Origin: Geitlerinema sp. BBD 1991-9
GTDB taxonomy: Bacteria; Cyanobacteriota; Cyanobacteriia; Cyanobacteriales; Geitlerinemataceae
Assembly (NCBI GenBank): GCA_001657325.1
Contig: LWRO01000004.1
Coordinates: 1 to 64,000, forward strand
DNA: 64,000 bases
Direction: 5' to 3'
Shown here: positions 52,388-60,913 of the stretch, piece by piece
Numbering within the stretch: the stretch's first letter is position 1
How the letters are laid out: each line of letters begins with the position of its first letter
Translations under genes and position numbers: made by a program
Notes under the pieces: model-generated
Seen by the model: only the letters and a program-made list of their open reading frames with translations
What the model was told of the DNA's origin: nothing
Databases searched by the model: none

Positions 52388-52909
52388 ATGCTGGATTCGT
52401 TTTCTAAAGCCGTTGCTGAAGCTGATACCCAAACGACTTATGTCGAAAGTTACCGTATTGCAGAACTGCGTCAATTTATCGAAACGGGTTCGCATCGCAT
52501 CGAAATCGCCAAAATGTTAGGCCAACAGGCCAAATCGATCGTGGCAAATGCAGTATCTGCGATGTTAACCGAAAACCCTCAATTAATTCAGGAAGGTGGA
52601 AACTGCTATCCCGCTTCTCGCATGGCTGCATGTTTACGCGACGGCGGGTTTATCCTGCGCTATATCAGTTACGCGCTTTTAGCAGGGAATGCATCTGTCC
52701 TCGAAGAACACTGTCTCTTTGGCTTGAAAGAGACTTACAACACTCTCGGTGTACCTATTCCTTCTGTACTTCGCGCCGTTGCAGTAATGAAAAACTCGAC
52801 CCTCGAACTCGTTGAAAACTTATTAGGAGATAGTGACGCATCTATGAAAGCATCTTTAGTTCTAGAAACGTCGCAGTATTTCGATCTCGTGACAACGGCT
52901 TTATTGTAG
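52388..52909 (+). CDS. Divergent phycobiliprotein beta chain (phycoerythrin-like, single canonical bilin cysteine)
   Basis: 173 residues, globin-like phycobiliprotein fold. Landmarks: MLDSFSKAVAEAD at the start, GGNCYPASRMAACLRDG in the chromophore region, then RYISYALLAG and GLKETYNTLGVPI. The bilin-binding Cys82 and the Asn72 position are present. The extra cysteines of phycoerythrin beta (50/61) are Ser/Thr-type here, and no cysteine follows residue 109, so the 155/165 site is missing. It resembles CpeB in NCYP and in the N-terminus, and ApcB in the GLKETYN region. The alpha partner lies 70 bases downstream. No lyase or linker gene is near. Confidence 0.85.
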   Translation: MLDSFSKAVAEADTQTTYVESYRIAELRQFIETGSHRIEIAKMLGQQAKSIVANAVSAMLTENPQLIQEGGNCYPASRMAACLRDGGFILRYISYALLAGNASVLEEHCLFGLKETYNTLGVPIPSVLRAVAVMKNSTLELVENLLGDSDASMKASLVLETSQYFDLVTTALL

Positions 52910-52979
52910 ACTTTAGCATGAATCCTACCCTCGAAATACCATCTGTTCGACAACTGGAGAACTCACGAATTTTGAAGCG

Positions 52980-53474
52980 ATGAAATCGAACATTTCCACA
53001 GTTATTAATATTGCAGAAGTTGCCGGACGTTTCCCGAGCGAAAGCGATCTCACGACGATGCACCGTTACTTAGAAAACGGGGACGCTCGACTGGAAGCTG
53101 CCGAAAAACTCGCCACCTATCACGATGCCCTCGTGCGCGATGCGGGTGATGCTGTTTTTCAGCGTCACGCCAACCTCCAAAAACCTGGTGAAGGTGCAGA
53201 TACGCAAGAGAAAGTCCAGAAGTGCTATCGCGATATCGCTCACTATTTGCGGTTGGTCAATTATTGTTTAGTGACTGGGAATACGAGTCCACTCGACGAG
53301 TGGGGCATTGCAGGAGCGCGAGAACTGTATCGCACGTTAAAGTTGCCCACAGTCCCTTACGTAACTGCGTTTGAGTACCTTCGAGATCGCGCTCATGCTG
53401 GATTGAAGCTGTCGCCGGCTGCTTTGTCGGAACTGCGATTTTATTTGGATTATTTCATTAACGCGATGTCGTAA
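52980..53474 (+). CDS. Divergent phycobiliprotein alpha chain (CpeA-like, one bilin cysteine)
   Basis: 164 residues, the length of phycoerythrin alpha. CpeA-like features: MKSNISTVINIAEVAGRFPS start, RLEAAEKLA, QKCYRDIAHYLRLVNYC with chromophore Cys82, LDEWGIAGARELYRTL, and a FYLDYFINAMS end. The second phycoerythrin alpha bilin site (Cys139 in C-PE) is His139 (RDRAHAG). One bilin is therefore expected, instead of two. It is encoded with the beta chain, beta then alpha as in normal operons. The colour and phycobilisome location cannot be predicted. It is unlike allophycocyanin alpha in the conserved N-terminus. Confidence 0.88.
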   Translation: MKSNISTVINIAEVAGRFPSESDLTTMHRYLENGDARLEAAEKLATYHDALVRDAGDAVFQRHANLQKPGEGADTQEKVQKCYRDIAHYLRLVNYCLVTGNTSPLDEWGIAGARELYRTLKLPTVPYVTAFEYLRDRAHAGLKLSPAALSELRFYLDYFINAMS

Positions 53475-59461: not shown

Positions 59462-60081
59462 GGCGTTTGTGTTGGGTTGGCAAGGGGTCAGTCTTCTATT
59501 TTAGTAAATTTGTTAAGCTTGATGCGAGAACCTTGGCGTTTCGGATACGATAGCAATACGGAAAATTGAACTCAGTTTTGAGACGTTTTGAGACGATTTC
59601 GCTCGAATTGATGGGAGATACAAGTCCGATGACGGAATTCTCCTCGAACAATTTCGCTTGTATCGATCGATCCCGAAGTTTTAAGAATATTTTCTTGTCA
59701 GACGCTCGAAACTTTTCGTCAAACCCTAACGCAAAACCCGAAAAAATCAATAGCTTCGATGGGAATTCGTCACTCGAGATATGACCTTTCGACGATCGCC
59801 CATCCGAGATGAAGGATTGCTAACAGGACTTGCTTTTCGAGAAATCGTTTGAAACGATCGACCCCAGCAAGCCATCTCGATCGACACCACACAACGACCG
59901 CACATCTGCGCGAACGAGCCAAAAAACTCATCTCCAAAGCAAAAATTGTCGATTTTGATAGTTGGCGATCTCTATCCTGAAGCGCGTGTGCAATCCTGCT
60001 GACAGCAGTGTCTCGTCTACACCTTATATATATGTCACCGTTTTGGAGGGGGAGATAAGGTGGGATCGATCCTCGTCTCCC
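59462..60081. other. 620-base gene-free region
   Basis: No supported gene. A minus-strand frame of 84 codons (59496-59750) has no family resemblance and no ribosome-binding site and is probably chance. A short direct repeat TTTTGAGACG occurs twice at about 59573-59592. Composition is mixed, and decayed coding sequence is possible but not shown. Confidence 0.4.
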
Positions 60082-60750
60082 TCATTCCGCAGTATCGACA
60101 AGCAACATTTCTAAAAACGCACTCGTCACGCGATAATCGTCGTCTTTCTTCAAATATGCCAGAGCTGCTTGGGCTTGGGGCTGTTGGAAGTGTCGCAACG
60201 CCAGAACAACGCGACTGCGAACGCGCCAGTTTTCATCGCTGACAAAGGGAAGTAACTGCTCGAGAGCATCGTCCTGTTTCGGCGTGTTCGCTAAGGTTCC
60301 TAGGATCTCGATGGCCATGAAGCGCACAACTGTATCAGCATCTTTGAGTGCGACTTGACACAAATCGTAAAGGGCCTCGGGGTCGAACAGTTCGATCGCG
60401 ACGGCTAGGATACTCTGACGAAGCAACCAGTGACCGTCTTCGCGAAACAGATGGCGCAGATAAGGGATCGCCCGATCTCCATATAGCGACATAGAACTCG
60501 CCGCTTCAGCACGAACGTTATAGTCGGGGTCGTCCAGCATTTTGACCAAAGCATCGAACGCTAGGTCGTTTTGTTTTCGCCCGAGTCCCATGGCAACGAA
60601 CGATCGAACTAATAGTTCGGGATCTTCGATCCGGCTTTTCAGCAACGGAACGGCGACCTCTGCGTCGTACTCGCGTAAGGCAGTTACAGCTCGCATCCGC
60701 TGCTGAGGGTCTTGACTGTTGAGAGAAATTTCGATCTGTTGAATGTCCAT
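60082..60750 (-). CDS. HEAT-repeat protein
   Basis: 222 residues from the ATG at 60750. Consecutive HEAT/PBS-lyase-like repeats: RMRAVTALREYDAEVAVPLLKSRIED, LLVRSFVAMGLGRKQNDLAFDALVKMLDD, NVRAEAASSMSLYGDRAIPYLRHLF and further units to WRVRSRVVLALRHF (landmarks VRAEAASSMSLYGD). Such repeats occur in phycobilin lyase E/F-type and NblB-like proteins and in general scaffolds; the sequence has no clear lyase signature. An HLR1-like site (60784-60801) lies 34 bases upstream, suggesting light-dependent control. Confidence 0.8.
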   Translation of the reverse strand: MDIQQIEISLNSQDPQQRMRAVTALREYDAEVAVPLLKSRIEDPELLVRSFVAMGLGRKQNDLAFDALVKMLDDPDYNVRAEAASSMSLYGDRAIPYLRHLFREDGHWLLRQSILAVAIELFDPEALYDLCQVALKDADTVVRFMAIEILGTLANTPKQDDALEQLLPFVSDENWRVRSRVVLALRHFQQPQAQAALAYLKKDDDYRVTSAFLEMLLVDTAE

Positions 60751-60783
60751 GCCCGCATCCTCGATCGCTCTTGTCAATTTTAG

Positions 60784-60801
60784 TTTACATAAATTTACAA
60801 A
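60784..60801 (-). promoter_or_regulatory. HLR1-like site (RpaB binding) upstream of the HEAT-repeat gene
   Basis: Reading on the plus strand, TTTACATA (60784-60791), two bases, TTTACAAA (60794-60801) matches the HLR1 consensus of two (G/T)TTACA(A/T)(A/T) units separated by two bases. RpaB binds HLR1 at high-light-responsive cyanobacterial genes. The site is 33-51 bases before the HEAT gene ATG, in its promoter region; psbN ends 113 bases away. Confidence 0.55.
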
Positions 60802-60913
60802 ATGTAACAACAATCGAAGCGGCGGACAACTGAACTCGCGTAATATCCCCTAAAACAAAAGATGCGCCAAGCGGCGCAGGAAAGAGATAATTGCAGTTAG
60901 CACTCGATCGAGC

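Follow-up and report, generated by a model that had tools for sequence, protein, structure and literature searches.

A two-gene locus in the window (the whole stretch of DNA analysed here, 64,000 nucleotides) encodes a predicted biliprotein that is functional, lineage-restricted and derived from phycoerythrin (PE), and that could hold no more than two bilins in the window and no more than one in the related genomes. We give a probability of roughly 0.5 to the explanation that a PE alpha-beta pair was duplicated, departed from the rod antenna and persisted outside the rods as a biliprotein poor in bilins, partnered by a HEAT-repeat protein. The relatives are seven genomes of a related genus (g6; G005, G007 and G009-G013), here called Phormidium_A. 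G010 was taken as P. yuhuli AB48, G005 as P. alkaliphilum, G009 as Phormidium sp. OSCR, G011 as SL48-SHIP, G013 as P. willei BDU 130791 and G012 as Geitlerinema sp. P-1104. A passage of PMC9420970 assigns named strains of this pair-bearing genus to GTDB Phormidium_A.

Gene pair and bilin attachment sites

The two open reading frames (ORFs) of the orphan pair lie on the same strand, separated by 70 nt, and contain no internal stops:

52388-52909, + strand: orphan PE-like beta subunit, 173 aa; Cys82/Asp85 and Asn72 present; Cys50, Cys61 and the C-terminal bilin Cys absent
52980-53474, + strand: orphan PE-like alpha subunit, 164 aa; Cys82 present, Cys139 replaced by His

Both chains matched PF00502 (E 8.1e-49 for beta and 1.9e-46 for alpha). 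Among the NCBIfam families, beta scored highest to CpeB (191.8 bits), followed by CpcB (141.3 bits) and ApcB (138.2 bits), and alpha scored 217.1 bits to CpeA versus only 99.1 bits to ApcA; both remained below the curated cut-offs (275 bits for CpeB, 225 bits for CpeA). The intact PE-like pair reported in a preliminary description, made from the letters alone, was thus confirmed. The suggestion made there that beta is intermediate between CpeB and ApcB was ruled out, as CpeB gave the top family score and the beta clade joined CpeB in the trees (below). Membership in the allophycocyanin or phycocyanin families failed on the same two grounds, family score and tree position.

The pair is flanked by an RsmI-like gene upstream and a UspA-like (universal stress protein) gene downstream, and the real cpe cluster of the same genome is located on a different contig. 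Its placement outside any rod operon, also part of the preliminary description, holds.

To count the bilin sites, we aligned 62 beta-type and 70 alpha-type chains. Cys50 and Cys61 were present in 35/35 CpeB versus 0/8 orphan betas, and the C-terminal bilin cysteine, found in 35/35 CpeB and 15/15 CpcB, was likewise missing from all eight. Cys82, Asp85 and Asn72 were all kept in every orphan beta. The alpha Cys82 occurred in 33/33 CpeA, 15/15 CpcA, 6/6 ApcA and 7/7 ApcD versus a single one of the nine orphan alphas, that of the window, which also retains Asp85. Cys139 was found in 33/33 CpeA and 0/9 orphan alphas, the residue being His in the window and Ser in the other eight. This equated to two of the five C-PE bilin sites (beta 50/61, 82 and C-terminal; alpha 82 and 139) in the window and one of five in Phormidium_A. 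The cysteine pattern first read by eye for each chain was reproduced by the alignments, as was the view of a PE scaffold cut to two bilins or fewer in the window pair, which is maintained as a discrete lineage.

In Phormidium_A, the alphas have lost Cys82 and Asp85 together with 13 residues within the stretch 62-120, so at most one bilin is left per pair. Conservation was lowest in this stretch, where 19/46 aligned residues matched the window alpha, compared with 31/61 and 22/40 on its flanking sides. This region bears on whether the pair may be a minor, weakly expressed antenna part that sits on phycobilisomes as a variant disc or cap and is tuned by few bilins. The window alpha, with its Cys82 and 64% identity (38/59) to a normal CpeA across residues 62-120, is consistent with such a role, as is the PE-like fold of beta. 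However, the deletion and the loss of Cys82 and Asp85 in Phormidium_A argue against it, and no rod operon adjoins the pair in any of the eight pair-bearing genomes, even if linkers might come from rod genes at other loci. We consider an antenna role improbable.

Occurrence, loss of phycoerythrin and ancestry

A beta search of 99 relatives recovered orthologues in all seven Phormidium_A genomes, 53-56% identical to the window beta. With an alpha profile run on 388 genomes of the order, the seven Phormidium_A genomes and the window scored above 235 bits, a genome of another genus (G002) 160 bits and ordinary CpeA at most 151 bits. A beta profile run on 386 genomes of the phylum, a draw that overlaps the alpha-profile set and included four of the seven Phormidium_A genomes, gave 345-351 bits in these four, 309 bits in the window and 205 bits for the next best match. 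Both profiles were built with orphan sequences, which inflates the orphans' own scores, and the gap to other PEs is the informative part. A contig-collection search with the single window beta returned zero matches and a search with the beta alignment four loci, all from Phormidium_A relatives. Within the family (f1, 14 genomes), eight genomes carried the pair, one carried alpha alone and five (one of them 61% complete) carried neither. The beta start codon is GTG in 7/7 Phormidium_A genomes (e.g. L047:9841) and ATG in the window. Among the open-licence papers listed for the topic, no published description of the orphan pair was found.

Elsewhere, the window's genome encodes complete CpeBA, PebA, PebB, PcyA and CpeY (713 bits, cut-off 600). 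Its cpe cluster comprises CpeB, CpeA, three further HEAT-repeat genes, PebA, CpeY and a CpeS-type gene. In addition to this genome, CpeY exceeded the cut-off in G001, and it did so in neither G002, G003 nor any of the seven Phormidium_A genomes. The latter each contained 10 to 12 PF00502 matches, none of which gave a CpeB- or CpeA-like score beyond the orphan pair (seven of seven genomes; four of seven for the beta profile). Each Phormidium_A genome also possessed a single bilin reductase, PcyA (344-346 bits, cut-off 206), and PcyA was likewise the sole one in G002. The alpha Cys82 has been lost in the genomes that lack CpeY and PebA/B. Since PcyA is the only bilin reductase, the one bilin left to the Phormidium_A pair is presumably phycocyanobilin. 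CpeS-type genes numbered seven in the window's genome and, in the six Phormidium_A genomes searched out of seven, five each in five genomes and four in one; a form scoring ~241 bits was present in five of these six. CpeS/CpcS-type lyases can serve the Cys82 sites of many phycobiliproteins. That the pair is kept intact in relatives without PE or red-pigment enzymes suggests reuse beyond bulk light harvesting.

The chief result against our preferred explanation came from G002, which keeps an alpha orthologue (L094:9634-10185) without beta and without the HEAT-repeat gene described below (E <= 1e-40). This argues against a light sensor that strictly requires both chains; in this genome, alpha may serve a separate function or be decaying. 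In the G002 alpha, Cys82 is replaced by Gly, and the gene adjoins the same SLH-domain gene as in Phormidium_A.

For the phylogenies, near-identical chains (similarity > 0.92) were removed and chains outside set length limits were dropped. The orphan betas formed one clade (99.8/100, SH-aLRT/UFBoot), and the node uniting them with CpeB received 80.5/96, and 92 in a second tree, in which structure-derived PEs were added and allophycocyanins and all phycocyanin chains except six were left out. The orphan alphas fell on the CpeA side, with CpcA apart (99.4/100); the node joining them to CpeA was weak (23.2/49, and 53 in the second tree). A PE origin is thus clear in the case of beta, and for alpha it is likely. 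In the second tree, the orphan beta adjoined one picocyanobacterial CpeB (L229, which still has its bilin cysteines) with support of 100, whereas the orphan alpha adjoined CpeA of genus g68, also with support of 100. The orphan sequences sit on long branches, and the conflict between the sister lineages of beta and alpha could stem from these.

HEAT-repeat gene and the divergent 190-aa phycobiliprotein

The preliminary description had also called the pair isolated from any lyase in the window. This was incomplete, as a HEAT-repeat gene with weak likeness to the CpcE/F lyases occurs further downstream, near the remnant of another phycobiliprotein:

60082-60813, - strand: HEAT-repeat protein resembling NblB, with PBS-lyase-like repeats; start codon probably the ATG near 60750
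59897-59999, + strand: N-terminal remnant of a divergent 190-aa phycobiliprotein; a 25-aa piece with 72% identity (tblastn E 6e-7), after which the frame shifts

The HEAT gene, whose best score was to NblB (115.4 of 300 bits), lies 6.6 kb beyond alpha on the opposite strand and adjoins a tatA-like gene and pth. In 7/7 Phormidium_A genomes, beta is preceded at a distance of 27 nt by a HEAT-repeat gene of 217 aa, so that its linkage to the pair is fixed in this genus; the window HEAT gene is 51-55% identical to it and is its orthologue. There, beta and alpha are 13-64 nt apart, and an SLH-domain gene follows alpha at a distance of at most 16 nt or with a 4 nt overlap. The HEAT neighbours again include pth (7/7) and a tatA-like gene (6/7, by BLAST).

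At E <= 1e-40, a threshold picked after the data were seen, the HEAT gene was detected in 24 of 59 relatives: 12/13 PE-bearing genomes, 7/7 pair-only genomes and 5/39 others, PE status being defined as a non-orphan beta-search match at E <= 1e-40. This rules out a universal cyanobacterial gene. Its presence went with that of PE (12/13 versus 5/39; Fisher test, p 3e-7), in a comparison of related genomes that ignores kinship, and the co-occurrence may reflect some other client. We infer that the HEAT protein is a partner of the pair. Its gene offers a specific candidate for a factor that matures biliproteins. The cpe cluster of the window's genome (L045:3398-6561) contains three HEAT-repeat genes besides CpeY, one of which is a paralogue of the window HEAT gene; the other two may be CpeZ and CpeF. 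A 205-aa HEAT gene beside cpeA is distinct from the window HEAT gene and may be CpeZ.

The phycobiliprotein remnant belongs to the context of the window HEAT gene, outside the orphan pair, and an intact copy is located elsewhere in the genome (L044:12203-12775). This 190-aa phycobiliprotein adjoined the HEAT gene at 6 of 19 loci examined (L255, L257, L258, L260, L261 and L264), always in divergent transcription and 109-477 nt apart. It was present in 12/13 PE-bearing genomes and in 1/30 others of the order. At E <= 1e-25, it was found neither in the Phormidium_A genomes nor in any of five picocyanobacteria, CpeB being present in at least four of the five. The orphan pair may have taken the seat of this protein beside the HEAT gene. 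Its identity as AplA is not established: it was missing from 5/5 picocyanobacteria at this threshold, although one paper describes aplA from PEII strains.

Selection, possible role and known systems

Both orphan genes are under purifying selection. Across 21 Phormidium_A species pairs, median dN/dS was 0.179 for beta (range 0.066-0.219), 0.080 for alpha (0.033-0.176) and 0.093 for the HEAT gene, compared with 0.113 for pth (15 species pairs). Open reading frames in 8/8 pair-bearing genomes, together with these ratios, rule out a recent pseudogene. A relict heading for loss, with no selected function, would agree with the step-wise loss of bilin sites, the disappearance of beta from G002 and the long branches. 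However, the pair is intact in all eight genomes, dN/dS is close to that of pth, and expression is reported in AB48 (a passage of PMC9420970), which makes a relict very improbable. That passage states that P. yuhuli AB48 encodes and expresses cpeA and cpeB; the source names no loci, and because no other CpeA- or CpeB-like gene was found in G010, these can hardly be anything other than the orphan pair. The passages found of a P. alkaliphilum metaproteome paper name no phycoerythrin.

The constraint on alpha also bears on a bilin-independent scaffold or assembly factor, in which the heterodimer, or alpha alone, would bind another protein and any remaining bilin would be incidental. No bilin cysteine is present in eight of the nine alphas, and yet alpha has the lowest median dN/dS of all (0.080) and persists alone in G002. 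Conversely, a purely structural role would not need the Cys82, Asp85 and Asn72 kept in 8/8 betas. A scaffold is possible, though we do not favour it.

AlphaFold monomer models were obtained for the window beta (pLDDT 86.2) and a Phormidium_A alpha (pLDDT 84.2). Gloeobacter phycoerythrin was the best PDB match for both (beta, E 1e-11, TM 0.86; alpha, E 6e-8, TM 0.69, rmsd 6.2). Under the preferred explanation, a non-rod biliprotein with a HEAT-repeat partner, beta would fold as a normal phycobiliprotein and receive one bilin at Cys82 via a CpeS/CpcS-type lyase. In Phormidium_A this bilin would be phycocyanobilin, while the organism of the window could attach either that or phycoerythrobilin. 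Alpha would mainly be a structural partner of beta, and the HEAT protein may be a chaperone, much like CpeZ towards CpeB, or a partner that handles bilins. A pair that has only one or two bilins, and neither linker nor rod operon close by, more probably works as a sensor or bilin carrier than in bulk light harvesting. Storage and assembly are further candidate roles, and the new class proposed in the preliminary description, acting as a sensor, for storage or in low light, may apply. More tentatively, and against somewhat unfavourable odds, the pair may constitute a family-specific class made from PE, with a bilin-free structural or effector alpha, a beta carrying one phycocyanobilin and a dedicated HEAT partner. 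Such a class would serve as a light sensor or bilin carrier after PE loss, and in Phormidium_A would sit beside the HEAT gene where the 190-aa phycobiliprotein sits in several PE-bearing cyanobacteria.

Among known systems, C-phycoerythrin (CpeB/CpeA) is the nearest family for both chains and shares their fold, length, subunit pairing and beta Cys82 site. The orphan pair differs in lacking beta Cys50/61, the C-terminal Cys and alpha Cys139, in scoring below the NCBIfam cut-offs, and in having no cpe operon, PE lyases or pigment genes alongside. The reduced PEs of Prochlorococcus are themselves already known, and the reduction here is a different one. The eight betas of presumed low-light type retain their 50/61 cysteines, and Cys82 is present in their alphas. 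The four free-standing betas (genus g157), of presumed high-light strains, lack an alpha partner and still carry Cys61 and Cys82. Unlike either, the orphan lineage retains alpha and loses its cysteines. The closest precedent is provided by these Prochlorococcus proteins (passages of PMC9916406 and PMC2327270), the former paper describing PE genes reduced outside phycobilisomes, of unknown role and with a photoreceptor function proposed. The AplA class, for which part of PMC2246261 proposes a photosensor, is also a phycobiliprotein outside the rods; however, AplA resembles ApcA, whereas the orphan pair is PE-derived and two-chained. CpeZ, a HEAT-repeat protein tied to PE-type subunits and chaperone-like for CpeB, assists CpeS and keeps CpeB soluble (a passage of PMC7948978), whereas the HEAT gene of the orphan pair scores best to NblB. 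The PE-type proteins described here form a natural series from the five-site PE of the window's genome, through the two-site window pair and the one-site Phormidium_A pair, to the bilin-less lone alpha of G002. Along it, attachment sites are lost jointly with the lyase and the pigment enzymes. Closed-genome isolates, P. yuhuli AB48 among them, are found within its carriers. The series makes testable both how antenna proteins come to take on new functions and how the PE fold handles phycocyanobilin.
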